A stretch of DNA of 44,832 bases. Source: Bacillota bacterium. GTDB taxonomy: Bacteria > Bacillota > Limnochordia > DUMW01. The DNA lies in the NCBI GenBank assembly GCA_012839765.1, contig DUMW01000098.1:1-44832 (forward strand). Direction: 5' to 3'. Both the position numbers and the translations under genes were made by a program. This document shows positions 6,284-22,597 of the stretch, one piece after another (position 1 is the first letter of the stretch; each line of letters opens with the position of its first letter). The notes beneath the pieces were generated by a model. It worked only from the letters and a program-made list of their open reading frames with translations, was not told the origin of the DNA and searched no databases.

Positions 6284-7387
6284 TTAGAACCACCTGCGTG
6301 TCTGCTGTTCCTGGACCTCAAAGGCCCTTCGAATCTCCGTCAGCAGTTGTCGGGCCCGCTCGGTCCAGGTATTTTGGAAAGCCAGCTTTCGGCGCTTTTC
6401 CGCAAGTTCCGCGGCAGCCACACCTTGGGATCGTTTTGGACTACGGGCCGGCCGTTGCCGTTGCTTCAGATCACTGAGAGAGACAGTGCGTTTTCCCCAG
6501 GCCAAACCCAGGTTGCCTTCGTCTGGGACCACCCCCAACTCTTCCAAAGCTTGCTCTAACTGGGACTGGAGCCCTTCCCACTTTATACTTCCCCAGGCTA
6601 GGAGCCCAAGGGAGCTCAAATCCTCCCCGGTAAAGACAATGAGGGGTTTCCCCAAAGCCAGGTACTCATATACCTCGGGGAAAAGCTGCCCGTCTTCCAC
6701 ATTGAGTAAAAGAAGGTCCACATGTTGCACATAGGCCGGCAGCTCCTGCCGGGAGCGGGGTCCCAACACCAGGACATTGGGTGGCAGGCTGATGGAGCCG
6801 GTCCCCAAGGGACCGATCAGGGCAAAGGAACAGTAGCGGTAATAGGTAGCTGCTTGCTTCAGCAGTTCCAGGGCTACAGGATCCTCCAAAGAACCAACAT
6901 AGCCCAGGATGGGTCGTCGGACGTGGGCAAACTCCTGGGGTGCTGGTTGTGGCGTCTTGACCAAATCCCCGGTGCACCCGTCTGGCAACAGTAGCACGTG
7001 GGGGTGGTTTTCCGAAAGGACTTCGAAGGACCGTTGGTCTGTGCAGATGAGAAGCTGGGCATCAGGATGCAAGGGCAGGGCAGGATCATGACACTCCTGA
7101 ACCACCAGGGCCCGGAATCGCCGGGGCAAAGGATCGAGCTTTTCGGTCCACACCACACCATATTTTGTCCGCAGCAACAAAGACCAATGGCTGTAAACAT
7201 ATAGAGTATCAGTTATCTTCTTAACTTCCTGAGTCTCGGTCTCATAGAGAAGATCCACATGCCACCCCAGACTAGCCACGTGCCACAACAGTTGTCCTGT
7301 TCGGGATTGGGGATCCCAAGGGACCTTGGCCACATACAACAGCCTGGGAATGAGACTCCTCGGATGGTGCCTGGTAAACCATTTCAA
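6284..7387 (-). CDS. Glycosyltransferase-like protein (GT-B, family 1/4 type)
   Basis: 367 aa. The overall pattern is GT-B: an N-terminal half with LLYVAKVPWDPQSRTGQLLWHVASLGWHVDLLYE (Rossmann start plus a long helix), a linker, then PILGYVGSLED (about 161-171) and the nucleotide-sugar-binding segment PEVYEYLALGKPLIVFTG (about 237-254). The usual E-x7-E signature is represented by the E of PEVYEYLALGKP. The last about 60 residues are rich in K/R/E and probably helical. No convincing strong RBS sits immediately before the ATG at 7387, so the start is less certain. It heads the minus-strand block; acceptor and donor are unknown. Confidence 0.72.
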   Translation of the reverse strand: MKWFTRHHPRSLIPRLLYVAKVPWDPQSRTGQLLWHVASLGWHVDLLYETETQEVKKITDTLYVYSHWSLLLRTKYGVVWTEKLDPLPRRFRALVVQECHDPALPLHPDAQLLICTDQRSFEVLSENHPHVLLLPDGCTGDLVKTPQPAPQEFAHVRRPILGYVGSLEDPVALELLKQAATYYRYCSFALIGPLGTGSISLPPNVLVLGPRSRQELPAYVQHVDLLLLNVEDGQLFPEVYEYLALGKPLIVFTGEDLSSLGLLAWGSIKWEGLQSQLEQALEELGVVPDEGNLGLAWGKRTVSLSDLKQRQRPARSPKRSQGVAAAELAEKRRKLAFQNTWTERARQLLTEIRRAFEVQEQQTRRWF

Positions 7388-7663
7388 CGGCTGCCGCCCC
7401 CTTCCACCTACCCAGCCGTCCGTTGGGGAACAAGCTCAGCACATATATTAATATGCAATAATCATAGGAAACGTGACTTGGTTTCCCAAAAAGGAAGCTT
7501 TGCCCCATTGCCCTCCCTTGACCCATGCACAACCACCAAGGGTTGATAGAATGAGAATTGTGTTACCGACCCAACCGAGGAATCTCTCCTTTGCCTCCGC
7601 GTAAACCCCAGGAGTTTTGCCGCATATAATTAGCTAGTAGAAAACCATAAAGGAGGATGGCTT

Positions 7664-8068
7664 ATGTCCACCCCTGATCTACGGGAAGCCAGGAAAAAGG
7701 TACTCAAACACCCCACGGTGGAATATATACCCTTATATCCCCATCCCATTGCCAAGGGAAACCAAAAAGAAGGTAGCCTACGTTTAACAGTAATCAAGGA
7801 TCCTACGGAGTACGCCAAATTACAGGAAACCCTCGGTCTTAAGAATCACTGGATTGACCTTACCAACTCGCTGGTGGTGGCGGTGATGGGTGCGGAAGTA
7901 TTGGAGATAAAGTATCGCGGTTTTACAGTGGTGATGTTTGCCAGACTAGATCCCACCCGCTACCACATCTTTTCCGTAACCCGCCGGTATTTCTATAAAG
8001 ACCAGCTACATTGGCAGCTTTACGATCTGGATGGCGAACTACAGGTTTGGTATAACCTTTCCCTTTAA
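7664..8068 (+). CDS. Small protein of unknown function
   Basis: 134 aa, not recognised. It starts at an ATG with a strong AAAGGAGG site 7 nt upstream and ends just before a perfect 10-bp hairpin, so it looks like a complete monocistronic gene. There is no signal peptide or membrane segment. The sequence is a basic N-terminus (residues 1-20), then alternating strands (SLRLTVIKDP, LVVAVMGAEVLEIKYRGFTVVMFARL) ending in aromatic-rich segments (RRYFYKDQLHWQLYDLDGELQVWYNLSL region). This suggests a small alpha/beta or beta-sandwich cytoplasmic protein. A TATAAT box lies at 7625-7630 but has no good -35. Real by start site, codon pattern and lack of a better frame; function not assignable. Confidence 0.65.
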   Translation: MSTPDLREARKKVLKHPTVEYIPLYPHPIAKGNQKEGSLRLTVIKDPTEYAKLQETLGLKNHWIDLTNSLVVAVMGAEVLEIKYRGFTVVMFARLDPTRYHIFSVTRRYFYKDQLHWQLYDLDGELQVWYNLSL

Positions 8069-8494: not shown

Positions 8495-9460
8495 ATGAGG
8501 ATTCTACAGGTAGTTCCCTACGCCGAACTCGGCGGAACGGAAAAGGCCGTAGGCACCCTCTCCCGAGGACTTGTGCAGCGCGGGCATGAGGTTTTGGTTT
8601 TAACTCCAACTGGGCCAGGCCATATCTATTTCGACGGGTTAAAATGGGAACGATTGCCCGATAGCCCATGGCAAAGGCGCGCCCGGATAAGAAGGATGGC
8701 GCCGTTTTTTGATCTAGTGCATATCCACGCAGCACGGGAGCTGGTTTTAAGCTGCAATAGACCTGTGGTCTTCACCCCCCACAGCTACTACAACGCTTTA
8801 GACCGCTTTGCGGTCAGGCTTTGTGCGCAAAGTGCCACCGTTATCTGCTTTACAGAATGGGAAAAAGGGATGCTGCAGCGCCTGGGCTTGGGTAAACTTG
8901 CGGTTATTCCTAACGGTCTAGAAGAAGTTCCGCTCCTCAGGAAACCTCAGACCAACACACCGCCGCGGATCGGCTATCTGGGAAGACTTACGAAGGATAA
9001 GGGATTGGACCTTCTCTTTCGGGAACTAGTAAAGGTGCAAGCACCCTACGAGCTTTGGATTGCCGGAAGAGGAAAGGAAGAAAAGAAGCTTAAAGCTCTC
9101 GCCGCCGCGCTTAATCTACCGGTGACCTTTCTTGGCTTTCAAGAGCCCTTTTCCTTCTTGAACTCGCTAGACATCTTCGTTCTTCCCTCCAGGACGGAAA
9201 CCTTCGGGCTGGCCTTGATTGAAGCCATGAGCCAGGGACTCTGCTGCGTGGCGGCCGATGTGTGCGGTCTGGGTGAGATTCTAGGTGACGCCGGGATTAC
9301 AGCACCCCATAGTCGCCTTGGGGAAGCCCTGGAAGAAGCTCTTCAGAAAAGCGATCTCAGGGAAACCTTAGGGGAAAGGGCGCGACAGAGGTTTTTAAGG
9401 TACTATACGGAAGAACGCATGATTCGAGAAACCGAGGGACTGTACCTGTCGCTCGTGTAA
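8495..9460 (+). CDS. GT4 glycosyltransferase
   Basis: 321 aa, GT-B fold. It begins MRILQVVPYAELGGTEKAV, with the glycine-rich acceptor-side loop typical of GT4 enzymes. The nucleotide-sugar-binding half has RIGYLGRLTKDKGLDLLF (about 165-182), LWIAGRGKEEKKL, and the E-x7-E-like ETFGLALIEAMSQG (about 233-246) followed by GLGEILGDAGI. It likely adds a hexose to a lipid-linked or secreted polysaccharide. It is 42 nt upstream of an O-antigen-ligase-like gene on the same strand, pointing to exopolysaccharide or envelope glycan assembly. Donor and acceptor sugars cannot be told from the sequence. Confidence 0.88.
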   Translation: MRILQVVPYAELGGTEKAVGTLSRGLVQRGHEVLVLTPTGPGHIYFDGLKWERLPDSPWQRRARIRRMAPFFDLVHIHAARELVLSCNRPVVFTPHSYYNALDRFAVRLCAQSATVICFTEWEKGMLQRLGLGKLAVIPNGLEEVPLLRKPQTNTPPRIGYLGRLTKDKGLDLLFRELVKVQAPYELWIAGRGKEEKKLKALAAALNLPVTFLGFQEPFSFLNSLDIFVLPSRTETFGLALIEAMSQGLCCVAADVCGLGEILGDAGITAPHSRLGEALEEALQKSDLRETLGERARQRFLRYYTEERMIRETEGLYLSLV

Positions 9461-9502: not shown

Positions 9503-10657
9503 TTGGAAAAACGGCTAGAGATTTGGTTGGGCATAATAACATTCTTGATCATTGTACTAGGAAGTATCGGTGGAAGCCTGCTAGGGCTTTCGCTCCTTCT
9601 TATCTCGTTGGTGTATCCACCCTTTAGCAAAGACCTCCTCACCGAAGCGAGGAATACCAAGCCCAGTAAACAGTTTTTCACGAGACTCACCTTTCTTATG
9701 GCCCTTTGGGCTGTACTTGCAACTTTAGTCGCCGCCCCCAAAAGCCTTATCGCATGGAGCACAGTCCTTCGCCTGATCTTGGTGATCTTTCCGGTCTTTT
9801 TCGCGGGAGTTTGCGCCCGTAGGCTCGGTCCGAAGTTTTTGTGGTGGTGCTTTATTCTAGGGGCGTGTCTTGCCACTTTGTATATCTTCTACGATTACTA
9901 CATCATCGGACACCAGAGGGCGGAACTTCTTTTGGGCTGCAATGCAGCCGGTACCCTCCTTCTCGGCGCTGTGGGTGTCTTTCTCGCCGCCTTTTATCGG
10001 GAAAGGTCCGCATATCGGTGGCTGTATCTTTTGGCAAGTCTTTTGGCGATTGTCGGGATCATCCTCACCGCGTCTAGAGCAGCCTGGATCGGTGTAATCG
10101 TAATCTTAGCCGTGCTCTTCCTTGCTGCGGCAAGGAGTCGGCAGGTTCTGATCATCATCTGCCTTGGTGCTTTGGTTTTCAGCCTGTTTGTAGCTACCAA
10201 CAACTATTGGGTGCGCAGGTTCCTGACGATCTTTGACTTGGGCGAGAATTCCGCCCGCATCAATGTCTATAGGGTTTCGATCTCCATGATGGCGGACAAC
10301 TTCTTCGGCGTGGGCTTCGGACATTTCCCGGAGGCACACGCAACCTACTTGGAAGAAGGTAAAAAACCGCTGGCCCATGCCCACAACATCTTTCTGTACT
10401 TTGGCACCGAGCTCGGGCCTGTAGCCTTTGTGCTGAGCACGCTCATCTACTGCACCCCAGTGTACATGTGCTTCAGAATTAGTAGGCGTAAGTCATACTT
10501 CGTTCCTGTTAGTGCCGCCCTGCTTGCGGTTGTAGTAAGGGAGCTTTTTGATGCCACCACTTCGGGCTTTGCTCTTGCAAGCTTCCTATGGTTCGTGTTT
10601 GGCTTGATTTTCGCAGAGTACGTGTCCCTGCAGGAAAGCGTGGAAGAACGCAACTAG
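9503..10657 (+). CDS. O-antigen ligase/polymerase family membrane protein
   Basis: 384 aa from a TTG start with an AAGGAG site 11 nt upstream; no better start lies in frame. At least ten hydrophobic segments span the protein. The Wzy_C/WaaL-type signature is present: ILTASRAAWIGV (about 185-196) and the periplasmic loop GVGFGHFPEAHATYLEEGKK...AHAHNIFLYFGTELGP (about 271-312), with the conserved HxHN motif before the next helix. Such proteins polymerise or transfer lipid-linked glycans at the outer face of the membrane. In a Gram-positive setting it probably polymerises an exopolysaccharide or teichuronic-like glycan, or glycosylates a surface protein. It forms a two-gene unit with the preceding GT4. 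Confidence 0.85.
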   Translation: MEKRLEIWLGIITFLIIVLGSIGGSLLGLSLLLISLVYPPFSKDLLTEARNTKPSKQFFTRLTFLMALWAVLATLVAAPKSLIAWSTVLRLILVIFPVFFAGVCARRLGPKFLWWCFILGACLATLYIFYDYYIIGHQRAELLLGCNAAGTLLLGAVGVFLAAFYRERSAYRWLYLLASLLAIVGIILTASRAAWIGVIVILAVLFLAAARSRQVLIIICLGALVFSLFVATNNYWVRRFLTIFDLGENSARINVYRVSISMMADNFFGVGFGHFPEAHATYLEEGKKPLAHAHNIFLYFGTELGPVAFVLSTLIYCTPVYMCFRISRRKSYFVPVSAALLAVVVRELFDATTSGFALASFLWFVFGLIFAEYVSLQESVEERN

Positions 10658-11007
10658 GCTTCGGACGCCAACGATTGGGTGGGTCAGCAGGTCAAGGACA
10701 CGATACCCTTCCAGGAACAGGCGCAATCACTCTGGCCGCCACATACTCCCAGTGTTTTGCATATCAAGGGCTCAGACCCGGGGCGCTGACCCAAGCTCAC
10801 CTTTTTGCGCTCAGGTCAGTGTTGTCTTCTGCAACGGCAAACACATCAACCGTCCCAATTCAATTCTTTCGCTCCTTGATCACCAATGGACAGTCTTTCC
10901 TACCAGACTAGCTTTCTTCAGGTTCCAGCCACCTGCTACGCTAACGGCTCCCTTCACCCTTTGCAACTCTCACCCTATGACAGTACCCATGCCGGACACA
11001 CCATAAT
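10658..11007. other. Gap without a recognisable gene
   Basis: About 350 nt between convergent genes. Short open frames on the plus strand translate to unremarkable peptides broken by stops and without RBS. The stretch in frame with the ligase stop runs about 40 codons before TGA and could be decayed coding sequence, but nothing is recognisable. Confidence 0.4.
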
Positions 11008-11037
11008 GAGAAGAACGGGCGCTAACCCGTTCTTCTC
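11008..11037. terminator. Bidirectional hairpin between convergent genes
   Basis: A perfect 12-bp stem (GAGAAGAACGGG with CCCGTTCTTCTC) and a 6-nt loop lie 7 nt beyond the stop of the minus-strand SPOCS gene. U-runs are short on both sides (GTCCTGTTT on plus, ATTATGG on minus), so termination efficiency is uncertain. Confidence 0.65.
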
Positions 11038-11044
11038 GTCCTGT

Positions 11045-12670
11045 TTATGGTTCTGGTTCCGGTTCCGGCTCGGGCTCTGGTTCGGGCTCTGGTTCCGGCT
11101 CCGGCTCAGGTTCCGGTACCGGGCATGGCCCTTCCACCACGAGGAGCAATTGCTGGGTCTCGGTGACCTTCACAAAGAGGGCCACAATCACCTTTTGGTG
11201 CAGGGTCAGATCATTGAGCAGCTCGAAGGAGATGTGCTCAATGCAAGGCATAACCCGTACATTGCAGCCTGGACGGGCATTCTCCACATCCACCGCCACA
11301 CTAAAGGGCACATCTTCACTTAGATGGTGCTCCAGATCGTCGTCGCCGATAAAGAACACCTGCTTGTGAACTACACCTTGGACCAGGACCTTGTTGTCGA
11401 TAACCGTCGTCTCCAGGTCCTCGATCTTGGCGATGATATCCCTGACCTTCACCGCAGGCATAGGTAATTGCAGACTGGTCTCCTGCAAGAACTGGGCGGT
11501 ATTCTCGCCACAGACCTGCTCCAACTTCACCGGAGTTCCGGTCTCTGAAAGGACCACCGTTACCTGCCTGGGGTTGGTCACCTCCACGAACAGGTCCACC
11601 ACCACCTTTTCGTGCAGGGTGGTGGTCACCTCTGCCCCTGGCGGGAAGATCAGCTTGTAGCTGATGTGGACCACTTCGGCGCATACCTGCACATCATGGA
11701 ACTCCATGGTTCCAAGGGCATCCACAAAGTGACTGAAGGGAATATCTACGGACTGGTGTCTTTCAATATTGTCCTCGTCGATGAAGAAGATCTGTTTGTG
11801 TATGATCCCCTGGATGATTACCTTATCGCAGATGGGCTCAAAGGTGATGTCCTTGATCTTGGCCCGGATCTCACTGATCTTCCGTGCCGGCACCTCCAGT
11901 TCCACCGTTTCCTCTTCCAAGAGCTGCCCAGTAACCTTAGCCACCACTTCATCGATGACCACCAAAGGTCCTGGACCGATGGTGACCTGCAGATTCTGGG
12001 TGTCGGTAACCTTCGCGAAGACCTCGAAGATTACCTTTTGTTGGAGCAGCGTCGGTGTCAGAAGATGGTGCACGATGTGTTCGATGCATACTTCCACATG
12101 GCAGTTCATGCCGGGCTCTGCGCCGGGGATATCCAGGAATGTGGAGAAGGGAACGTCTTCGCTCCGGTGGTAGACCATGTTGTCTTCCCCGACGAAGAAA
12201 ATCTGTTTGTGGATGATACCCTGGACGATCACCTTATCACAGATGACGTCACAACATATATCCTTCACTTCAGCACGAATCTCGCGAACCTTTAGGGCGT
12301 TAGCCCCTAGATCCAACACGTTTTCCAAAAGAACCTGTCTGGTGTTCTCACCAATAACAACCTGTGCCTTAATGCAAGCAGCCAAACTGTACCCCCCTTT
12401 TTCCGGTGCCGGTTCAGCACCTTCTACCCTTGCTGACTGGTCTTGCCTCCTTGGAGTTAAATGTTTAGTCACCGGGGACTCCGCGCTCGGTTGGAGCAGA
12501 CACTGGTAGAAATAGACGGGGTTGGTAGCATAATGGGTGGGTAATTCCTGTGCTTGGGATGCCGAACGAGAGTCACGGTTTCCTTGTCTTTGGCCCATGG
12601 CCCAAACCAGATATAGACCAAAACACCCAATGAGGATCAACACAACGCCAATAACAAGAAGTCCCAGCAT
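11045..12670 (-). CDS. Membrane-anchored triple-SPOCS (DUF3794) protein with Pro-Glu tail
   Basis: 541 aa. Residues 2-25 form one hydrophobic segment with no cleavage site, so an N-terminal anchor. Three SPOCS (DUF3794) repeats follow at about 126-225, 263-366 and 406-504; each carries the core (D/N)KV-x-(I/V)QG-x-x-HKQ(I/V)FF and a later (E/D)(D/V)(V/I)PFS strand. The repeats hold several cysteines (ICCDVIC, MNCHVEVC, EPICDKV, GCNVRVMPC) that the neighbouring 807-aa protein lacks. The C-terminus is P(EP)11. SPOCS domains are known from SipL and spore-coat/envelope proteins of Clostridia, where they mediate morphogenetic contacts. No LysM domain is present. An AGGGAGGGGGG site precedes the ATG. 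Likely a forespore/mother-cell envelope component, by family and by the adjacent spoVA genes. Confidence 0.85.
   Translation of the reverse strand: MLGLLVIGVVLILIGCFGLYLVWAMGQRQGNRDSRSASQAQELPTHYATNPVYFYQCLLQPSAESPVTKHLTPRRQDQSARVEGAEPAPEKGGYSLAACIKAQVVIGENTRQVLLENVLDLGANALKVREIRAEVKDICCDVICDKVIVQGIIHKQIFFVGEDNMVYHRSEDVPFSTFLDIPGAEPGMNCHVEVCIEHIVHHLLTPTLLQQKVIFEVFAKVTDTQNLQVTIGPGPLVVIDEVVAKVTGQLLEEETVELEVPARKISEIRAKIKDITFEPICDKVIIQGIIHKQIFFIDEDNIERHQSVDIPFSHFVDALGTMEFHDVQVCAEVVHISYKLIFPPGAEVTTTLHEKVVVDLFVEVTNPRQVTVVLSETGTPVKLEQVCGENTAQFLQETSLQLPMPAVKVRDIIAKIEDLETTVIDNKVLVQGVVHKQVFFIGDDDLEHHLSEDVPFSVAVDVENARPGCNVRVMPCIEHISFELLNDLTLHQKVIVALFVKVTETQQLLLVVEGPCPVPEPEPEPEPEPEPEPEPEPEPEP
11048..11116 (-). 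repeat. Coding Pro-Glu dipeptide repeat
   Basis: 23 codons read P(EP)11 at the C-terminus of the 541-aa SPOCS protein. The DNA is a 6-nt quasi-repeat, but Pro codons (CCA, CCG, CCC, CCT) and Glu codons (GAA, GAG) vary, so the tract is old and selected at protein level rather than a fresh slippage expansion. Confidence 0.85.
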
Positions 12671-12857
12671 GCCCCCCTCCCTGGAAAGGCATCCACCACT
12701 TTGCTCAAAGTGGGGATATTCCCTCAGTCACTACAATATATGTACTAGGACGTCGGTGTGACAAAGGGAATCCCTTTCCTAGTTACTAGTAGACTATGAA
12801 GCATAGGGGGTTTTGGGTGCTTGTCCATACATAAAGGAAAGAAAACGAAGGGATCAA

Positions 12858-12877
12858 GGGGCTGCCCAAGCAGCCCC
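12858..12877 (-). terminator. Hairpin after the 807-aa SPOCS gene
   Basis: An 8-bp stem (GGGGCTGC with GCAGCCCC) and 4-nt loop lie just past the stop codon at 12884; on the minus strand a moderately T-rich run (TTGATCCCTTCGTTTTC) follows. It would separate this gene from the shorter SPOCS gene downstream. Confidence 0.6.
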
Positions 12878-12883
12878 CAAATC

Positions 12884-15307
12884 TTAAGGTGACGTGATGA
12901 CGGCGACCACAACTTCCACAGGTCGGGGTGCCGGTTCGCCCACCACTTGCAGGGTTAAGACTTCGGTAATGACTTCTTCGATGCCCGGACCCGAGACCTC
13001 GGTAACAATGAACAGCTCCACCAACAGGTGTACCTTGGCGAAGGCCTCCAGGGTGATATTCTGCGTCAGCAAGGTGCCATCGGGGGACAGGGAGATCTCC
13101 AGATCCACAATCTCCAGGTCGATCTGGGCACCCATATCCGGTGTAGCACCGGGTACCGGTACTTCGAACTCGAAGGGCACCAGTTCTTCCTCGGTCTGGG
13201 TCTCTCCTTCATCGTCCAGATAGGTGACTAGTTTCTGGATGGTTCCAGTGATTTCCACTCCATCCTCCACCACCACCGGGGTGGCATCGAGGATGTTGAG
13301 GGTGATCTCTTCAATGGAAGCCGCAGGCGGATCAAGTTCCACAACACTGGGGATCTCCACTTCAATGGTGTTCTCATTGATAACTAGCAGGGTCTCCACC
13401 AGGATCCGCTCCAGGACGATGCCTTCGCCGATGACATCGGTAATCACTTCCACTTGCCGTTCCGAGACGATACTCACCGTCGCCTCAAGGACGATGGTCT
13501 GTTCCACGGTGATGCAGTCGATGAGGTTAGCGATGATCTTCTCGATCTCCACATTCACTTCTATTTGCTGATCCCCTACGGGTTCGGGCAGTTCTACCTC
13601 TATGGTAAAGGGTACGATCTCTGTAAACTCCTGCACTACATTGTTGGTGTCGACGAAGACGATCTCCTTGATGACGTTACCTTCAATGATCACAATGCTG
13701 TCCAGGACGGTCACATCGGTGACCTCCACCGTACCAGTGACTTCCCGTAGTTTCAAAGCCGCGGTGGGCAGGGTCACTTCGTTACGAATGACCTCTTGCT
13801 CGCTGAACTCTTCCGCTTCTTCGATCTTGATCAGCGCGGGGACCACCTCGGGGAGCACTGGTCCCGGAGGTACTAGGGGAACATCCCGTTCAATGAGGAT
13901 CTGCCGGGTATTTTCTCCGATGACTTCGTCCAGCTTCAGCAAGGGACCTTCGCCGGTTTCCAGGTTAATCTGCAAAGCTTCGGTCACAATGGCGTCGATG
14001 GAGACGATCACCCGCTTACGCAGCAGAGTAGGCGTGATCAGTTCGAAGATGATGTCTTCCACTTCTGGGGTGAGGAACACATCCATGCCCGGCTCCGCAC
14101 CGGGGGCATCGATGAAGCGGCTGAAGTCCAGATCCACCGCCAGGTGATGCGCAACTCCCTCGGAGATGAAGAAGATTTGCTGATGAACCGTACCTTGGAC
14201 GATCACCTTGTCTTCGATGACTTCGGTCTCCAGGTTTTCGAAGGTGGCCACGATCTCGTCGATCTTTTCCGCCGGCAAGGGCAGGATAACCTCTTCCTCC
14301 AGGATGAACTGAATGCCTTCCTCCACCACAAACCGATTCACCTGGAAGAGGGGCTCCCCTTCTCCAGCGGTGACGCCGATGATCTCTAGATCCGTCACCT
14401 TAACGAAGAACTCTACCACCACCGTTTGCTCCAGGGTAGTGCTGTCCACCAGGTCGAAGTCCACACTTTCAATGGTGGGTGTGACCTGTACATGCATACC
14501 CTCTTCGGCACCGGGGATGTCGATGAAGGTGCTGAACTCCACATCCTCCGCCACGTGCCGCTCCAGGTTGTTGGTATCCACGAAGAAGATCTGCTTGTGC
14601 AACGTACCTTGGATCAAGACTTTGTCTTCAATGACCGTAGGTTCCAGATCCTCGATGGTGGCCCGAATCTCCGAGATCTTTATGGCCGCCACCGGGAGGG
14701 TAAAGGTGGATTGGATCAGTTCCTGCACTGTTCCCTCGCCCACCACCGGCCGGCCCAGGATCTGCAGGTCACCGGGTTCGATGAGAATCTGCTCTTCATC
14801 CAATACCTTCACAAAGATCTCCAGGATCACCTTCTGATGCACGACGGTACCGCCGTTGATGAGACTAAAGGTAATATGCTCGACCACCACATTTACCTGG
14901 ACCTTCATACCCGGTTCGGCGCCGGGAAGATCGATGAAGGTGCTGAAGGGAATGTCCTCGGGCTGATGGTGGACCAGGTCATCGGTGCCCACGAAGAAGA
15001 TTTGCTTGTGCAGAATTCCTTGGATGATGACCTTATCCGGGATCACCTCGGTGGTGATATCCCGCACTTCCGCCCGAATTTCCCGGATCTTGATGGCCAC
15101 GATGGGCTGTTGCAGGGGGGTTACCTGTTCTATGCTAAGCTCTTTTTTTGCTAAGGTTGGCTGAAATCTTCTCGGAGGTCTTTTTTGCGGTACGTTGACA
15201 TGCACCGGCATCCCCATGGCAACTTGAGCATCAATTTTCCGTTTCTTGATGCTCATGGGTGCTTTCTTTTTATTCCTGACCATATAGGCCTTTTTTGGTT
15301 TCGCCAT
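12884..15307 (-). CDS. Five-repeat SPOCS (DUF3794) protein, 807 aa
   Basis: 807 aa with five SPOCS repeats at about residues 70-170, 207-308, 346-446, 516-616 and 661-765. The first three have the full core (VI(I/V)QG-x-(L/V)H(K/Q)QIFF and PGAE-x-GM); repeats four and five have diverged (IEGNVIKEIVFV, ITGTIQKLVTYL). Residues 1-55 are strongly basic (many K/R, several prolines) and the rest is very acidic and Val/Ile/Glu rich with no cysteine. There is no signal peptide or membrane segment. The ATG has a strong GAAGGAGGT site. Known SPOCS proteins (SipL, CotABC-like) act in spore envelope assembly; five copies in one chain suggests a long extended scaffold. Neighbours are the 541-aa SPOCS protein and spoVA. 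Confidence 0.85.
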   Translation of the reverse strand: MAKPKKAYMVRNKKKAPMSIKKRKIDAQVAMGMPVHVNVPQKRPPRRFQPTLAKKELSIEQVTPLQQPIVAIKIREIRAEVRDITTEVIPDKVIIQGILHKQIFFVGTDDLVHHQPEDIPFSTFIDLPGAEPGMKVQVNVVVEHITFSLINGGTVVHQKVILEIFVKVLDEEQILIEPGDLQILGRPVVGEGTVQELIQSTFTLPVAAIKISEIRATIEDLEPTVIEDKVLIQGTLHKQIFFVDTNNLERHVAEDVEFSTFIDIPGAEEGMHVQVTPTIESVDFDLVDSTTLEQTVVVEFFVKVTDLEIIGVTAGEGEPLFQVNRFVVEEGIQFILEEEVILPLPAEKIDEIVATFENLETEVIEDKVIVQGTVHQQIFFISEGVAHHLAVDLDFSRFIDAPGAEPGMDVFLTPEVEDIIFELITPTLLRKRVIVSIDAIVTEALQINLETGEGPLLKLDEVIGENTRQILIERDVPLVPPGPVLPEVVPALIKIEEAEEFSEQEVIRNEVTLPTAALKLREVTGTVEVTDVTVLDSIVIIEGNVIKEIVFVDTNNVVQEFTEIVPFTIEVELPEPVGDQQIEVNVEIEKIIANLIDCITVEQTIVLEATVSIVSERQVEVITDVIGEGIVLERILVETLLVINENTIEVEIPSVVELDPPAASIEEITLNILDATPVVVEDGVEITGTIQKLVTYLDDEGETQTEEELVPFEFEVPVPGATPDMGAQIDLEIVDLEISLSPDGTLLTQNITLEAFAKVHLLVELFIVTEVSGPGIEEVITEVLTLQVVGEPAPRPVEVVVAVITSP

Positions 15308-15617: not shown

Positions 15618-15639
15618 GAGGGTGGCAAAAGCCACCCTC
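15618..15639. terminator. Hairpin directly after spoVAE
   Basis: A perfect 9-bp stem (GAGGGTGGC with GCCACCCTC) and an AAAA loop abut the spoVAE stop. The U-tract (TTTTT) lies on the plus-strand side, so as an intrinsic terminator it points against antisense transcription; it may also stabilise the spoVA mRNA 3' end. Confidence 0.55.
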
Positions 15640-15642
15640 TTT

Positions 15643-15993
15643 TTAATCCTTGGGTCGGCTCAGCAAAGCGGCTAAGGTGCCGAAGACTACCGCTGCGGTC
15701 ACACCTAAGCCTGTGATCTCAAAGGCACCGGTAAACAGACCTTCCCAGCCCAGGCGTTTACTCTCGCTAATAATCCCCCGGGTGATGGAGCTACCGAAGC
15801 CACAGACTGGCACCAAAAACCCCGCACCACCCAAGTTAAACAGCGACTGATACACCCCGAACCCCTCCAAGATCGCCCCGATGATCACCAAGGAAACCAG
15901 GATCTGGGGCGGTGTCAGGTTGAAGCGATCGAAGACCAGCTGAGAAAGGCCACAAATGAGACCTCCAAAAAGAAAGGCCAAGACGTAGGTCAT
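15643..15993 (-). CDS. spoVAE: Stage V sporulation protein AE
   Basis: 116 aa from the ATG at 15993, which overlaps the spoVAD stop (ATGA); a longer in-frame extension is only an overlap with spoVAD and lacks family similarity. About four hydrophobic segments; FGGLICGLSQLVFDRFNLTPPQILV (start about residue 7), EGFGVYQ and LVPVCGFGSSITRGI match SpoVAE. It is a membrane subunit of the SpoVA channel that moves dipicolinic acid into the forespore and releases it at germination. Translationally coupled to spoVAD. Expected expression is forespore sigma-G, from family knowledge rather than from a promoter I could prove. Confidence 0.95.
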   Translation of the reverse strand: MTYVLAFLFGGLICGLSQLVFDRFNLTPPQILVSLVIIGAILEGFGVYQSLFNLGGAGFLVPVCGFGSSITRGIISESKRLGWEGLFTGAFEITGLGVTAAVVFGTLAALLSRPKD

Positions 15994-17000
15994 TGTGCTT
16001 CCACCACCACAGCATGGGCAATGCCCGGAATGGATTCTCCCTGTTGATAGCTTAAGGGACTGAACAGCGCACCGGTGGCCATGAAAAGAACCCGCCGCAG
16101 GCGACCTTCTTCCAAAAGCCGCATGACGTAGCCCAAAAAGACCACCGCGGAGCAGGCGCAACCACTACCTCCCGCCTTGAACTTAGGATTATCCCCGTAG
16201 ATCACGGCTCCACCGTCAATGTGCTTGTTTCCCAAACTGTGCCCCGCATCCTGCATCAAGCCGGAAAACATGGATTTTCCCACCTTAGCTAGATCACCGG
16301 TCATGATGAGATCATAATCCCCCACATCCCGGCCCGTGTCCTGAAAGTGCTGCAGCAAAGTGTCTGCGGCGGCAGGGGCCATCGCGGACCCCAAATCCTC
16401 GGGATTGGTGATGCCCAAATCGATCACCTTGCCGAAGGTCACTTCCGTAATCCGGGGACCGCGCCCCTCTTTGGACAGGATGGCGGCACCGGAGCCCGTC
16501 ACCGTGAACTGGGCCCGCCCACTGCGTTGGATGTTCTGCTCCACCGGATACCGAAACTGCCGTTCTGCCGCCTGATAGTGGCTGGAGGTGGCAACCAGCA
16601 CATGGTCCGCATATTCCCCATCCACCAACAAGGCACCGAGGGCTAGTCCCTCGGTCATGGAAGAGCAAGCACCGTAAATGCCTAGGAAGGGACGACCCAA
16701 CCCCCGGGCCACGAAACTAGAAGTAATGATCTGGTTTAGAAGATCTCCGGCGATAAAAAAGCCCACCTCTTCCGGTTCTAGTGTACTGGCTTGAAAGACC
16801 CGTCGGATGGCTTCCTCCATCATCTTCCTTTCGGCCAGTTCACAGGTGGCCTCACCCCAAAGATCGTCAGTGACAATATGATCGAAGTATTCCCCCAAGG
16901 GGCCTTCCCCTTCCCGGTGCCCCACCACGGTGGCCCGGGCAGTGATCACCGGAGGGGTGTTCAGGCGAATGGTTTGTAATCCGATCCGTTTATCTGCCAT
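15990..17000 (-). CDS. spoVAD: Stage V sporulation protein AD
   Basis: 336 aa, full length. It has the thiolase-like fold of SpoVAD: VGFFIAGDLLNQIITSSFVARGL (start about residue 98), a nucleophile-position segment GACSSMTEGLALGALLVD (about 129-146), FRYPVEQ, TVTGSGAAIL and GSGCACSAVVFLGY (about 276-289). SpoVAD is the soluble, peripheral subunit that binds dipicolinic acid on the inner membrane surface of the spore. It lies 22 nt after spoVAC and overlaps spoVAE by 4 nt. Gene order C-AD-AE without AA, AB, B or F is the reduced spoVA set common in clostridial lineages. Confidence 0.96.
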   Translation of the reverse strand: MADKRIGLQTIRLNTPPVITARATVVGHREGEGPLGEYFDHIVTDDLWGEATCELAERKMMEEAIRRVFQASTLEPEEVGFFIAGDLLNQIITSSFVARGLGRPFLGIYGACSSMTEGLALGALLVDGEYADHVLVATSSHYQAAERQFRYPVEQNIQRSGRAQFTVTGSGAAILSKEGRGPRITEVTFGKVIDLGITNPEDLGSAMAPAAADTLLQHFQDTGRDVGDYDLIMTGDLAKVGKSMFSGLMQDAGHSLGNKHIDGGAVIYGDNPKFKAGGSGCACSAVVFLGYVMRLLEEGRLRRVLFMATGALFSPLSYQQGESIPGIAHAVVVEAQ

Positions 17001-17021: not shown

Positions 17022-17486
17022 CTAGAAAAGATAGCCTCCGGCCAGGGCCTTCACCAATCCCACAACAAAACCGGAAAGGATCCCGAAAACCAACACAGGT
17101 CCCGCCACAGAAAAGATCTTACCGCCAATGCCCAGAAGAAAACCTTCCCGGCGGAACTCCATGGCGGCGGACACTACCGAGTTGGAAAAGCCCGTAATCG
17201 GTACGGCAGCTCCCATACCACCGAATTCACCCAAGTCATCGTAAAAACCAAGGGCGGTGGCCACCGCACCCAAGAAGATCATTCCCGCCAGGGTGGTGGC
17301 GGCGGTTTCCCCGGGGGTGGTCTCGATCAGAGAAAAGAGATCGTAGACCCCCTGGCCAATGAGGGAGATGGTTCCCCCCACCAGGAAGGCCCGGAGGAAA
17401 TTCCGCAGCAGCGGTGGCTTGGGCCCCTCTTCCTGCACCCTTTTTTGGTATTGTTTTTCCCGCTCCAGTTGAGCCTTGTTCGTCAT
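17022..17486 (-). CDS. spoVAC: Stage V sporulation protein AC
   Basis: 154 aa from the ATG at 17486, with GGGAGTGAT upstream; an open frame extends to 17750 but that extension overlaps the divergent regulator and lacks similarity. The protein starts with a charged cytosolic helix ([16 protein letters not shown]) and has about four membrane segments, with [21 protein letters not shown] at about 86-106 as the family signature. SpoVAC acts as the mechanosensitive-type pore of the SpoVA dipicolinate channel. First gene of the spoVAC-AD-AE operon and divergent from the LuxR/GerE-like gene. Confidence 0.95.
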
Positions 17487-17643: not shown

Positions 17644-17862
17644 ATGAGCGAAAACAATCCCTTTGGCAATTTGTCCCCACGGGAACAAGAAGTGGTGAGC
17701 TTGATCGCCAAGGGAATGAGCAATAAAGAGATTGCCAGCAAGTTGTTCATCAGCGAGCATACGGTGAAAAATCATATTTATAACATCTACAAGAAACTTG
17801 GCATTTCCGACCGAACTCAGGTCGCGCTCTTGGCTCATCAGCACGGAATTATCGATTCCTAA
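17644..17862 (+). CDS. GerE-like single-domain LuxR-type regulator
   Basis: 72 aa from the ATG at 17644, which has a GGAGGGAGG site about 7 nt upstream; an upstream extension to 17476 is open but overlaps spoVAC and has no domain. Almost the whole protein is one LuxR/GerE helix-turn-helix: [20 protein letters not shown] at about 10-29, then [20 protein letters not shown] and [11 protein letters not shown]. No receiver or sensor domain is present, so size and build equal those of B. subtilis GerE (74 aa), the late mother-cell regulator of coat genes. Sequence alone does not make it a GerE orthologue; divergence from spoVA supports a sporulation role. A G/C-rich hairpin follows its stop. Confidence 0.82.
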
Positions 17863-18053: not shown

Positions 18054-18818
18054 ATGAATTTGCGGAGACACAAACTGTTCCTCATCTTTCTAGTCATCGT
18101 TGCCCTCCTGGGCACATCGGTGGCCGCGGGGGCAGCCACCATCCGCGTCAATACCGGAAAAACCTTTACCTTCAAACCTGACACCGGCGGCAATACCGGC
18201 GGCGGTACTCAGCAACCCAACCTACCACCGGAAAAGCCAGTGGAAGAGCCCCAAAAGCCAGGGGAGCCACCTACCGGCGGCGGTAGCTCAAACAGTGGTA
18301 GTGGCAGCTGGTCAGGAAGCAAGAATGGTAACACCTGGGTATTCAGACCCGATCCCACACCAAAACCCGATCCCAAACCGGATCCTAAACCCAATCCGGA
18401 ACCCACACCGGAACAGCCACCTACTTCACCGGTACTTACTGCGAAGGAGCAGCAGCTTTTCAATCTGGTGAACCAGGAGCGGCTGATGCGGGGATTGGCT
18501 CCGTTGCAGCTGGATCCTCAACTGGTGGAGATCGCCAGGCTAAAGAGTAAAGACATGATTGTCCACAACTACTTTGCCCACACCTCCCCCACCTACGGAA
18601 CCGTAGCCAACATGCTGCGTAGTTTCGGCGTGTTTTACAAATACGCGGGGGAAAACCTGGCCGGTGCCTATTCCGTAAGCTCGGCTCACAGCAACCTCAT
18701 GGCCAGCGCAGGTCATCGGCAAAACATCCTCAACCCCTTGTACACCCATGTGGGGATCGGCATCGTGGAAGGCGGCCCCTATGGGATGATGATCACCCAG
18801 CTTTTTGTGGGTAGATAG
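18054..18818 (+). CDS. Secreted CAP-domain (SCP/PR1, YkwD-type) protein
   Basis: 254 aa. A signal peptide covers about residues 1-28 (basic start, hydrophobic core, AGA cleavage region). Residues about 35-125 are low complexity: glycine/serine rich, then a proline-rich linker of repeated P-K-P-D-P. The CAP domain fills about 126-254, with LTAKEQQLFNLVNQERLMRGL, HNYFAHTSPTYGT, GENLAGAYS and ASAGHRQNILNPLYTHVGIGI; the two histidines and the glutamate of the CAP cavity are present. Bacterial CAP proteins of this type (YkwD, SafA-associated YkzQ-like) are secreted or found in spores; enzymatic activity is unclear. The ATG has TTGGGAGG 7 nt upstream and the gene ends in a strong terminator, so it is monocistronic. 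Confidence 0.9.
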   Translation: MNLRRHKLFLIFLVIVALLGTSVAAGAATIRVNTGKTFTFKPDTGGNTGGGTQQPNLPPEKPVEEPQKPGEPPTGGGSSNSGSGSWSGSKNGNTWVFRPDPTPKPDPKPDPKPNPEPTPEQPPTSPVLTAKEQQLFNLVNQERLMRGLAPLQLDPQLVEIARLKSKDMIVHNYFAHTSPTYGTVANMLRSFGVFYKYAGENLAGAYSVSSAHSNLMASAGHRQNILNPLYTHVGIGIVEGGPYGMMITQLFVGR

Positions 18819-18970: not shown

Positions 18971-19798
18971 GTGAACACCAGCCAAGCCAAAGACGGCTTT
19001 ACCAGCGGCAACAATGCCCCCGACTTCCCCTTTACCCAAACCGGATGTCTAACCGACCACGACATTCCCCACGGTTACGGTAAAGACCGCATTGTTGCCT
19101 TAGTGAAAGATCCCCTGTGGGTCTTCACCTACTGGGAGATTACCGATACCCTCCTCTCGGAAAAACAGGCCCAGGTCCCGGGGAAGTGGGATCACGGCCG
19201 AACAGTGCTTAGGATCTATCAAGAGCCGGACAAGAGATACCTTTTCGATGTGGCCGTAGACCTAAAAGCCCGTAACTGGTACGTCTATGTGGGGCGCAAG
19301 GATACCAGCTTTCGCCTTGCTCTGGGACGACTGCTGCCCGATGGCACCTTCATCACCTTTGTAGAGTCCAACATCGTCACCACACCGCCTGGGGAAGTCT
19401 CGGACTTGGTAGACGAAAGATGGATGACCCTAGAAGAACTCTACCGGATCTATGCGGGTCTGCCCCAAGGGGAAAGCTCTCCGGCCCTGTTTCGCGCTAT
19501 CAGCATACTGGATCAACACATTAGTTCCCCCTCCTATGCCGCAAGTCCCATGGCGGCGGGGAAAGCACCGCGGAAGTTCTGGCTGGTGACCCACACGGAG
19601 CTGGTGATCTACGGGCAGACGGAACCCACCGCTTCGGTATGGATCCAGGGGCAACCCATCCGCCTCCAACCCGACGGCAGTTTTGTGGCCCGCTACGTCC
19701 TGCCCGATGGTCAACTACAGTTGCCCATCGTTGCGGAAGCAGCCTCGGGAGAAGAGTCCATCACCATTACCCCGATCATCACCAAGAGTACACAATAG
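18971..19798 (+). CDS. DUF4912 protein linked to alpha-glucan metabolism
   Basis: 275 aa. The DUF4912 domain runs from about residue 37 to 158: YGKDRIVALVKDPLWVFTYWEIT, RTVLRIYQEPDKRYLFDVAVDLKARNWYVYVG and GRLLPDGTFITFVESNIVTTPP are family features. A C-terminal beta-rich segment (about 200-275) includes TELVIYGQTEPTASVWIQG. Start is GTG at 18971 with GAAAGGAGG upstream. The GH57 branching-enzyme gene begins about 15 nt after its stop. DUF4912 has no proven activity, but its recurring place before GH57 and GT4 genes suggests a carbohydrate-binding or glucan-organising role; that is inference. Confidence 0.85.
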   Translation: MNTSQAKDGFTSGNNAPDFPFTQTGCLTDHDIPHGYGKDRIVALVKDPLWVFTYWEITDTLLSEKQAQVPGKWDHGRTVLRIYQEPDKRYLFDVAVDLKARNWYVYVGRKDTSFRLALGRLLPDGTFITFVESNIVTTPPGEVSDLVDERWMTLEELYRIYAGLPQGESSPALFRAISILDQHISSPSYAASPMAAGKAPRKFWLVTHTELVIYGQTEPTASVWIQGQPIRLQPDGSFVARYVLPDGQLQLPIVAEAASGEESITITPIITKSTQ

Positions 19799-19815
19799 GC
19801 CAGGGAGTGACGAGT

Positions 19816-21429
19816 TTGGAACAAGGCTATTTATCCATCATCCTGCATACCCACTTACCCTTTGTCCGCCATCCGGAACAGGAGCGTTTCCTGGAGGAGC
19901 ATTGGCTCTTCGAAGCCATCACTGAGTCATATATTCCCCTACTAAATATGTTCGGGCGGTTGCACCACGACGGGGTCGCCTGTCGCCTGGCCATGTCCCT
20001 CACCCCGCCTTTGCTCTCCATGTTGCGGGACGAACTACTACTGGAGCGGTACGAAAAGTACCTGGAAAACCGCATCAGCCTTGCAGAAAAGGAGATCCAG
20101 CGCACGGCGTTGTGGCCGGAGCTAAACCGGTTGGCGCGGATGTATCACCGAATTTTTACCCAAACCAAAGAGGACTTTGTACATAAATACCACCGGGATC
20201 TGGTCGACGCCTTCGGTCATTTTCAAAGGTTAGGCCTCATCGAGATCCTGGCCTCCGCGGCCACCCATGGCTATCTTCCCTTGATGATCCATCCCGAGGC
20301 CATCCGAGCCCAGATTCAACTGGGCATTGATTTTTACCAGCAAACCTTCGGCGTGGCGCCAGTGGGTTTTTGGCTTCCCGAATGCGGGTATGTACCGGGG
20401 ATCGACACGTACCTGGCCGCGGGGGGAATCAAGTACTTTATCTTGGATTCCCACGGGATCCTCCACAGCAAACCTCGGCCCCGATATGCCGTCTACGCCC
20501 CGGTCTATTGCCCCTCGGGGGTGGCCGCCTTCGGACGGGACTGGGAGTCCTCAAAGCAAGTGTGGAGCGCCCAGGAGGGTTACCCGGGGGATTGGGACTA
20601 CCGGGAGTTTTACCGGGACATCGGCCATGAACTGGATTTCGACTATCTTGCTCCCCATCTGGTGGGAGACATCCGGCATCAGACGGGAATCAAGTACCAC
20701 CGGATTACCCAAGACAATGGGCACAAGGAACTATACGATCCGGACCGGGCCCGGGAGAAGGCAGCCGTCCACGCGGGGAATTTCATGTTTAACCGGCAGC
20801 GGCAGATTGAATGGTTGGCCGCCAACATGGAAGATCGGAAACCCATCGTGGTGGCTCCCTACGATACGGAGCTTTTCGGTCACTGGTGGTACGAAGGCCC
20901 CCAATGGCTGGACTTTCTTATCCGCAAAATCCACCACGATCAAGATCAGGTGCGCCTGATCACCCCCGGCGACTACCTGAAGCTGTATCCGAAGAACCAA
21001 GTATGCATCCCTTCCGCGTCTTCCTGGGGATACAAAGGCTATAATGAGGTTTGGTTGGAGGGCAGCAACGACTGGATCTATCCCCATTTGCACATCATGG
21101 CGGAACGGATGACTGAGCTGGTCCACCACCATTGGCCTGGGGATCCCTTAACCACCGAAGCTATTAAACAATGTGCCCGGGAACTGCTGTTGGCCCAAAG
21201 CAGCGACTGGGCCTTCATCATGAAGACCGGCACCATGGTGGCCTACGCAAGACAACGGACCAGGGAACATATCGCCAATTTCAACCGCCTCTATGGACAA
21301 ATCCAAAGGGGAGAGATTGAACAGGACTTCCTCCACCAACTGCAGTGGAAAAACAACATCTTCCCGGAACTGGATCCGGAGGTATACCGTTCCGATTACC
21401 AGCCGCAGGTCCTGGTCCAACTGGGCTGA
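19816..21429 (+). CDS. GH57 1,4-alpha-glucan branching enzyme
   Basis: 537 aa from a TTG at 19816 with GGGAGTGA upstream; a GTG at 19807 is in frame and a long extension into the DUF4912 gene is spurious. The GH57 start motif is HTHLPFVRHP at about 11-20. The catalytic nucleophile is Glu189 in GFWLPECGY and the acid/base is Asp350 in APYDTELFGHWW. The DUF1957 C-terminal domain (about 430-530) with the SSDWAFIMKTGTMVAYA segment is the mark of branching enzymes as in Thermococcus TK1436, rather than of amylases. It would introduce alpha-1,6 branches in a glycogen-like polymer. Paired with DUF4912 and, 1.8 kb away, a GT4 that may be the chain-elongating synthase. Confidence 0.92.
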   Translation: MEQGYLSIILHTHLPFVRHPEQERFLEEHWLFEAITESYIPLLNMFGRLHHDGVACRLAMSLTPPLLSMLRDELLLERYEKYLENRISLAEKEIQRTALWPELNRLARMYHRIFTQTKEDFVHKYHRDLVDAFGHFQRLGLIEILASAATHGYLPLMIHPEAIRAQIQLGIDFYQQTFGVAPVGFWLPECGYVPGIDTYLAAGGIKYFILDSHGILHSKPRPRYAVYAPVYCPSGVAAFGRDWESSKQVWSAQEGYPGDWDYREFYRDIGHELDFDYLAPHLVGDIRHQTGIKYHRITQDNGHKELYDPDRAREKAAVHAGNFMFNRQRQIEWLAANMEDRKPIVVAPYDTELFGHWWYEGPQWLDFLIRKIHHDQDQVRLITPGDYLKLYPKNQVCIPSASSWGYKGYNEVWLEGSNDWIYPHLHIMAERMTELVHHHWPGDPLTTEAIKQCARELLLAQSSDWAFIMKTGTMVAYARQRTREHIANFNRLYGQIQRGEIEQDFLHQLQWKNNIFPELDPEVYRSDYQPQVLVQLG

Positions 21430-21431
21430 CC

Positions 21432-22298
21432 CTACGCCAGATCCCCGGAGGCAGGCAGGGTCAGGCGAAAGAGGGTACCGGTTTCCTTGGAGCTTTCTAC
21501 AGAGACAGTGCCGCCAAGGGCTTTCACCCTGGATTGGACCAGCCACAGGCCGTAACCGTGTCCAGCACTCCCCTTATTGGTGAAACCAGGCAGAAAGATA
21601 TCCTTCAGGCTGGTGGAGTCAATGTAGGCACCGTTGTTCCAGACTTCAACCAGGATATTCCCCTCTTGGGGGGCAGGAACTAAGCTCAGCTTTACCAGGC
21701 CCTGCCCGTCCTCCTCTAGGGCGGCGGCCTCAATGGCATTGTCACAGAGGTTGCCCAGAATACAAACTAGATCATCGTCCCTGTGGTTCAAGGCCACCGG
21801 ATTGACCCCCAATTGAACCGCAAATTGGACCCCTTGGTAGTGGGCCCTAGTCATCTTGGCACTGAGTAGGCTGAAGAAGGCACTGCCGCCGGGACCTACG
21901 GTGACCCGATTCCGACCGCTAATGGATTCGATGTAGGCGAGGGCCTGCTCCAGCTTGCCCATCTGCAGCATAGTGTAGACTACCGTAATCTGGTTCTGAA
22001 ACTCATGGCTCTGGGCCGCCAGCTGCTCCACCAACTCCTGTTGCCCTTTCAGCCGTTGTAATTTCACCCGTAGCTCCGAGTCCGAACGGACGTTGGAGAT
22101 ATAGTTGATACCGGCCCAGACCACCGCGCCCAGCACGCACAAACACCCAAGGATGATGAGATAAGGCCATTGCTCGGCGCTCTGCCAAGTCTGCCTGGTC
22201 CAGCGCATCTCCGCGAGCACAACCAAAGCAGTGCCGATGAAGACCAGGAGGAAAATGTACCAGTCCACCTGCCCTGTCCTTTGTTGCTTTTTGCCCAT
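21432..22298 (-). CDS. AgrC/Spo0B-type sensor histidine kinase
   Basis: 288 aa from the ATG at 22298 (an in-frame ATG at 22358 adds 20 residues that look non-natural). Two hydrophobic segments lie at about 13-30 and 46-66. The phosphoacceptor is His98 in AAQSHEFQNQI, the Spo0B/CitA-AgrC style H-box (S/H-x-F-x-N). The ATPase domain has LGNLCDNAIEAA (N box) and HGYGLWLVQSRVKALGG (G box). Only two membrane spans instead of the six to seven of AgrC, so peptide sensing is uncertain. The gene overlaps the 3' part of an agrB remnant, and no LytTR or other response regulator is encoded nearby. Confidence 0.85.
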   Translation of the reverse strand: MGKKQQRTGQVDWYIFLLVFIGTALVVLAEMRWTRQTWQSAEQWPYLIILGCLCVLGAVVWAGINYISNVRSDSELRVKLQRLKGQQELVEQLAAQSHEFQNQITVVYTMLQMGKLEQALAYIESISGRNRVTVGPGGSAFFSLLSAKMTRAHYQGVQFAVQLGVNPVALNHRDDDLVCILGNLCDNAIEAAALEEDGQGLVKLSLVPAPQEGNILVEVWNNGAYIDSTSLKDIFLPGFTNKGSAGHGYGLWLVQSRVKALGGTVSVESSKETGTLFRLTLPASGDLA

Positions 22299-22597
22299 GG
22301 CTGCCACCAACCTACATAAGCCAAGGAATTGGTATACATAATGGCGATTACAGCGCACCGAAGGCTTGTGCTGGCATGGGCTCCTCCGGAGAAACTGCGC
22401 AGAAGACCAAGGGCACCAGCCACAATGAGGGCACCAGGAAACAGACCCAGGACCCAGCTACTGACAATGATGAGAGTGTAGGACAACAGTAATGTTAGCA
22501 GACACTTTAAACCAAACTCCACCTGTTCACGTTTGTCTGCATCTAACTGAAATTCTCGGTCAATATTCTCTACAATCCAGTGGGCTAGCTTGTCCAT
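22064..22597 (-). pseudogene. agrB: Truncated agrB (AgrB peptidase N-terminal half)
   Basis: The frame is 177 codons, but only the first about 100 look like AgrB: an amphipathic start, two membrane segments (about 30-50 and 52-66), then LRSFSGGAHASTSLRCAV with catalytic His74 and Cys81 in the AgrB H-x6-C spacing. After about residue 98 the frame becomes Trp/Ser/Arg rich and hydrophilic, because it is the shadow of the kinase gene that starts at 22298. AgrB is normally about 190 aa with further membrane segments. No other frame continues it, so a simple frameshift does not explain the loss; a deletion that joined the 5' half to the kinase fits better. No agrD is seen. Whether the stub is made is unknown. 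Confidence 0.6.

Follow-up and report, generated by a model that had tools for sequence, protein, structure and literature searches.

Assembly of the spore coat is known mainly from Bacillus and Clostridioides difficile, where the SPOCS role is held by SpoVID- or SipL-type proteins. SpoVID and CotE of Bacillus are not known to form tandem arrays or a pair. SpoVID, CotE and SipL are the proteins from which the SPOCS superfamily takes its name, and SPOCS acts in the coat as a module for protein docking (PMC10867305). In SipL of C. difficile (CD3567), SPOCS (DUF3794) is combined with LysM, and it is LysM that makes the contact with SpoIVA (PMC6436350). The sipL gene lies in the sigma-E regulon and late coat and exosporium genes in the sigma-K regulon (PMC3789822). 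Here we analyse two neighbouring genes for tandem-SPOCS proteins of 541 and 807 amino acids (aa) on contig DUMW01000098.1 of a Limnochordia bacterium (assembly GCA_012839765.1); the whole stretch analysed, 44,832 nucleotides (nt), is referred to as the window. The two proteins probably constitute a sigma-K-controlled, mother-cell, membrane-tethered and glycan-associated rod scaffold of an outer spore layer absent from the laboratory model species; location and assembly of the scaffold we infer.

Comparison with described spore proteins

The pair shares with SipL the PF12673 repeats, three of which are found in the 541-aa protein, and a distribution restricted to sporulating genomes. It differs from SipL in lacking LysM, in the N-terminal membrane helix of the 541-aa protein and the five repeats of the 807-aa protein, in the putative sigma-K-type rather than sigma-E promoters of its family, and in coexisting with a real SipL in the source genome. 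SpoVID and CotE belong to the same named superfamily, yet they have diverged too far for PF12673 to detect them (no match in control genomes). The preliminary description of this locus had stated that known SPOCS proteins pair the domain with LysM; this holds for SipL but not for the superfamily at large, since it is also named after SpoVID and CotE, and CotE is not known to have LysM.

CsxC of Clostridium sporogenes, an exosporium protein (PMC4942563), is rich in Cys like the 541-aa protein but much shorter, at 273 aa. The NCBIfam CsxC model (NF045794) matched the 541-aa protein only in part, in its first SPOCS repeat (E = 3.4e-8), and scored 33.8 bits versus a cut-off of 135 bits; membership of the CsxC family was rejected on these grounds. 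Ena endospore appendages are likewise built of beta-rich spore-surface proteins, but of a different domain, DUF3992, for which a Pfam scan gave no match in either protein of the pair. No account of a pair with three and five SPOCS repeats was found in the open-licence literature, in agreement with the earlier claim that it is not described in model spore formers.

Two tandem-SPOCS proteins without LysM

Both genes lie on the minus strand and each is preceded by a good ribosome-binding site. The 541-aa protein (11045-12670) begins with a single hydrophobic segment (helix 2-27, mean Kyte-Doolittle hydropathy 2.9), followed by a disordered linker (29-93), a rod of three SPOCS units and a C-terminal Pro-Glu tail; its orthologues are collected in alignment A4. 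The 807-aa protein (12884-15307; orthologues in alignment A5) has no membrane segment. It consists of a disordered basic head (1-67, with a charge of +14 in 60 residues), five SPOCS units and conserved C-terminal strands, and carries a net charge of -92. Pfam matches to PF12673 (SipL, SPOCS domain) cover three stretches of the 541-aa protein (E = 1.4e-42) and five of the 807-aa protein (E = 2.1e-67), and the same scan found neither LysM nor any other family in either of them. Open reading frames (ORFs), Pfam matches, hydropathy and charge thus bear out the initial picture of a membrane-anchored protein with three repeats beside a basic-headed, very acidic one with five, both devoid of LysM.

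The two proteins are 46% identical across 395 residues, and repeats of each can be aligned with several in its partner, which indicates that they are paralogous arrays. In a tree of the repeats, which is poorly resolved and has long branches, repeats cluster by position (34 changes versus 80 when shuffled), most clearly S4 and S5. This position-wise grouping in a weakly resolved tree suggests that the arrays are old; being far beyond chance, it led us to reject a recent tandem amplification. Cys content is uneven, with 14 residues in the 541-aa protein versus one in its partner and 0 to 18 across homologues, and this variability makes disulfide cross-linking possible in some lineages. The Pro-Glu tail (encoded at 11045-11130 by tandem repeats of 6, 12 and 18 base pairs (bp)) is absent from orthologues, where PYGPYYF is a frequent C-terminus. 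No match indicating plasmid carriage was found.

Of the 12 SPOCS matches in the source genome (2.56 Mb, 96% complete), the pair accounts for eight. A SipL-type gene on contig C22 has three more, and the last lies in a short protein encoded on contig C88. The C22 protein is a SipL with three SPOCS units and LysM (L025:6885-8612), and SpoIVA is encoded on contig C42. Because this genome holds a separate LysM-bearing SipL as well as SpoIVA, the pair is additional to the normal SipL/SpoIVA set.

Conservation of the ordered pair

A scan of GTDB species genomes returned at least 74 loci, from which the locus counts given below are drawn. They come from Hydrogenispora-like metagenome-assembled genomes (MAGs), Halanaerobiia (Frackibacter, Fuchsiella), Thermosediminibacteraceae (Fervidicola, Thermovorax), and Tepidanaerobacter, Symbiobacterium, Dethiobacter and Thermaerobacter records. 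When SPOCS units and LysM were tallied in every ORF, a LysM-less gene with four or five SPOCS units followed by one with three was present in at least 35 distinct loci from several Bacillota lineages (locus L063 duplicates L035). The pairing that the preliminary description proposed to look for is therefore conserved, as an ordered pair of neighbours. Within Limnochordia, a pair-specific profile detected it in 3 of 73 genomes, namely the source genome and two members of one genus (G003 and G067). In the latter two the genes adjoin each other in this order, with a gene of 780 aa and five SPOCS units preceding one of 653 or 610 aa with a transmembrane segment and three SPOCS units.

Other arrangements of SPOCS genes were also seen. 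The largest cluster, in Candidatus Frackibacter (L065:811-13709), comprises seven SPOCS genes in one stretch with one to five repeats each. Two genomes of the same order (G117, contig C43; G119, contig C6) contain runs of short single-SPOCS ORFs as well as ORFs of more than 1000 aa with one SPOCS match. In L050 (11471-13480), L041 (8273-10366) and their relatives, proteins of about 670-700 aa with no Pfam match (families c17 and c37) are encoded directly downstream of the gene with three SPOCS units; an hhalign probability of 24% is only suggestive of their being very divergent SPOCS arrays.

Occurrence with SpoIVA and sigma-K-type promoters

The SpoIVA ATPase was found in 41 of the 43 tested genomes that hold such loci. 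The two others (G076 and G103) are MAG records and may be incomplete. The preliminary description had named lineages with the pair and no spoIVA as evidence against its proposal. On this point it was not contradicted: SpoIVA accompanies such loci in these 41 genomes and the pair in the source genome. Because Halobacteroidales alone offered no contrast (all 13 genomes have SpoIVA), the whole class Halanaerobiia was sampled. SPOCS genes are present in 28 of its 59 genomes, 27 of which also have SpoIVA; 31 genomes have neither, and one (G166) has SPOCS only. The genomes with SPOCS but no SpoIVA in these two comparisons are drafts. With all SPOCS genes counted, SipL included, and relatedness ignored, this co-occurrence gives a Fisher probability of 6e-16.

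The sigma-K consensus that we searched for derives from B. subtilis promoters. It reads [AC]AC-N15-17-CATANNNTA, and of 77 dereplicated multi-SPOCS genes 22 have it in the 200 bp upstream; dinucleotide shuffling, repeated 50 times, led us to expect 0.22 and never gave more than 2. Four permuted motifs matched upstream of these genes 0-2 times, sigma-A and sigma-G motifs showed no enrichment there, and that of a sigma-E motif was marginal. The sigma-K consensus is retained in the LysM-less subset (19/95), and it also precedes 16 of 379 other genes of the same loci, including YabG-type, glycosyltransferase and sugar-nucleotide genes. This strong enrichment points to late mother-cell expression of the multi-SPOCS family and is consistent with the timing expected of a sporulation module, as first proposed.

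In the window, two genes have a near-consensus site that matches 8 of 9 bases. One, CAC-N15-CATATATTG (12734-12760, minus strand), ends 63 bp before the ATG of the 541-aa gene; the other, AAC-N16-CATATAATT (7604-7631, plus strand), ends 32 bp before the ATG of a small gene, c2, described below. A score of 8/9 is reached by 3.15% of random 220-bp stretches, so that two among ten window genes correspond to p ~0.04. Alone, these two sites are modest evidence; they are strengthened by perfect sites, CAC-N15-CATATATTA, at orthologues of the 541-aa gene in three loci (L046, L048 and L062). Judged from comparative evidence, both the link of the pair to spores and its timing appear likely.

Predicted structure and membrane topology

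AlphaFold2, run with alignments of 41 homologues for the 541-aa protein and 32 for the 807-aa protein, predicted both to be stiff chains of beta domains. The domains are confident, with long strands running through the domain junctions (mean predicted local distance difference test 88.2 and 87.8, respectively), and their arrangement is less certain (predicted template modelling score 0.71 and 0.50). No relatives of solved structure were identified by sequence, nor any by a fold search against solved structures (best E 0.06 and 0.008, probability ~0.1 or less, TM-scores near 0.1). The 541-aa protein is predicted to have its repeats on the cytoplasmic side of its N-terminal membrane helix, behind a flexible 65-residue linker. 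Among 26 homologues with such a helix, its C-terminal flank has a net positive charge in 18 and a negative one in 3, so that by the positive-inside rule the repeats should be cytosolic, on the side where the coat is laid down.

Glycosyltransferases and other recurrent neighbours

Glycosyltransferases, a CAP-domain protein and the c2 family recur next to SPOCS genes, and all three occur in the window. Among 44 multi-SPOCS loci, 34 contain a glycosyltransferase from one of several clusters and 24 a CAP-domain protein, often directly upstream. The window encodes a TuaH-like glycosyltransferase (6284-7387, minus strand), a GT4 glycosyltransferase (8495-9460, plus strand), a membrane protein of the O-antigen ligase (Wzy_C) family (9503-10657, plus strand) and an exported CAP-domain protein (18054-18818, plus strand), which is the one with homologues in those 24 loci. 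In L022 and L035, the gene immediately preceding the SPOCS pair encodes a homologue of the TuaH-like enzyme. In G003 and G067 the pair is embedded in a glycosyltransferase and sugar-nucleotide cluster that includes PF13524-type enzymes and a TuaH-like enzyme homologous to that of the window. The sps crust glycan genes of B. subtilis are sigma-K controlled (PMC7439481). As makers of a sigma-K-controlled spore-surface glycan they can be likened in function to the glycosyltransferases next to the pair, although the enzymes differ. We know of no SPOCS genes in the sps loci.

The c2 gene (7664-8068, plus strand; ~134 aa) belongs to an undescribed family of ~140-aa proteins with PxVxYIPL, YR and FYK motifs and no Pfam match. 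Of 20 c2 members encoded in the loci, six have a sigma-K site that is perfect. In Limnochordia the family is limited to the source genome (1 of 73), and in Halanaerobiia it is present in 25 of 59 genomes, all of which have SPOCS genes, at 179-567 bp from a SPOCS domain in 24 of them. Because the neighbour in Halanaerobiia is often a SipL-type gene, c2 tracks SPOCS genes generally, beyond the pair. Another set of ~150-aa proteins without a Pfam match (c43; L070:6322-6783, L072:15899-17733) is encoded next to SPOCS and glycosyltransferase genes, with as many as three copies in tandem; two of these proteins have a perfect sigma-K site.

A proposed tethered scaffold and competing explanations

We propose that both proteins would be made by the mother cell after engulfment. 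The 541-aa protein would be membrane-anchored, most likely to the outer forespore membrane, with its SPOCS rod projecting into the mother-cell cytosol, the site of coat building. The longer, free 807-aa rod may then dock on the anchored rod and on itself through SPOCS-SPOCS contacts, so that a tethered scaffold would form outside the basement layer of SpoIVA and SipL. Decoration of this scaffold with products of the adjacent glycosyltransferases could give a crust- or exosporium-like surface. A bolder version, which we regard as tentative and rather doubtful in its full extent, is an undescribed spore layer in deep-branching Bacillota, in which tethered SPOCS rods dock with longer, unanchored ones, perhaps also joining them in end-to-end polymers, to form a glycan-decorated lattice outside the SipL/SpoIVA layer, with c2 as a dedicated sigma-K component.

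The tethered scaffold has to be weighed against three other explanations. The pair might be an extra or alternative SipL-like basement layer, which binds SpoIVA directly and drives encasement, with tethering in place of the LysM/SpoIVA contact. Its repeats are indeed those of SipL, its genomes have SpoIVA, and the prediction for the anchored protein places its repeats in the cytosol of the mother cell; but the source genome already has a LysM-bearing SipL, the C. difficile protein reaches SpoIVA through the very domain that the pair lacks (PMC6436350), and sigma-E control of sipL (PMC3789822) contrasts with the sigma-K-type sites at multi-SPOCS genes, and we consider this explanation unlikely. 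We give similarly low credence to a late exosporium or appendage component that forms free cytosolic sheets or fibres akin to CsxC, with the membrane helix being secondary. The contact of the CsxC model with the first SPOCS repeat, the exosporium location of CsxC itself (PMC4942563), the 14 Cys of the 541-aa protein and the several partners without a transmembrane segment are what speak for it, against a match far under its cut-off, a Cys content that falls to 0 in some homologues, and the presence of a transmembrane segment in most A4 partners. Least credible by far is a cell-surface or polysaccharide-locus scaffold of growth rather than sporulation, whose glycosyltransferases would make capsule. 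While the glycosyltransferase-rich neighbourhood and the O-antigen ligase in the window would suit it, the pair is nearly confined to SpoIVA-bearing genomes, the promoters of the multi-SPOCS family are sigma-K-type and not sigma-A, and the charges around the membrane helix suggest that the repeats face the cytosol.

Several observations weigh against the tethered, glycan-associated scaffold itself. The 807-aa gene of the window has no recognisable sigma-K site, and Halanaerobiia loci often lack glycosyltransferases. About one third of the A4 partners have no predicted transmembrane segment (some starts may be wrong), and the anchor is thus not universal. Because the pair occurs in so few of the Limnochordia genomes, it must be dispensable for sporulation in general. 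Finally, many of the relatives are MAGs, and the counts are inflated by lineage relatedness.

Arrays of LysM-less SPOCS proteins are held by many spore formers other than the model species. With its anchor, its promoter class and its dedicated neighbours, the conserved pair provides named targets for spore-surface building in these bacteria, and c2 is a new small protein family that closely tracks SPOCS genes.

spoVA, a GerE-like regulator and other features of the window

The spoVA genes and a GerE-like regulator adjoin the pair, as the preliminary description had reported, and are neighbours outside the module. On the minus strand, upstream of the pair, are spoVAC (17022-17486), spoVAD (15990-17000) and spoVAE of the SpoVAEb type (15643-15993). 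The spoVAC gene starts at an ATG after a ribosome-binding site, its 242-aa ORF being over-long, and has a sigma-G-like site upstream. The regulator, a LuxR-type helix-turn-helix protein of ~72 aa (17644-17862, plus strand), starts at an ATG near 17644. Directly after spoVAE, and thus between spoVA and the pair, is a 9-bp G+C-rich hairpin (15618-15639, minus strand; -24.8 kcal/mol over 61 nt, z = -3.23), which a pattern scan put on the plus strand, the site of its T-run.

These neighbours had been taken as a clue to function, and here the earlier proposal did not hold up. No SpoVA homologues were near SPOCS genes in the other loci listed, and a GerE-type helix-turn-helix was near them in only 3. 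The promoter-like sites also differ, sigma-G-like at spoVAC versus near-sigma-K at the 541-aa gene. Operon linkage or co-transcription of the pair with spoVA was rejected for want of conserved linkage, and on account of the hairpin and the differing sites. The idea of a spore-envelope module survives on other grounds, namely the conserved pair, the SpoIVA-bearing genomes and the sigma-K-type promoters, and not on the argument from spoVA and GerE.

Two more hairpins flank the 541-aa gene. The one between the two SPOCS genes (12852-12883, minus strand; -23.9 kcal/mol over 71 nt, z = -2.65) is a possible terminator or processing site, and the one after the 541-aa gene (11006-11039), which belongs to a fold of -32.3 kcal/mol (z = -4.16), is a likely terminator. 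Farther out, a DUF4912 protein adjoins a GH57 branching-enzyme-like gene (18971-21429), and a sensor kinase with a SpoOB-type helical domain (SPOB_a) and HATPase_c is encoded near the module (21432-22358).

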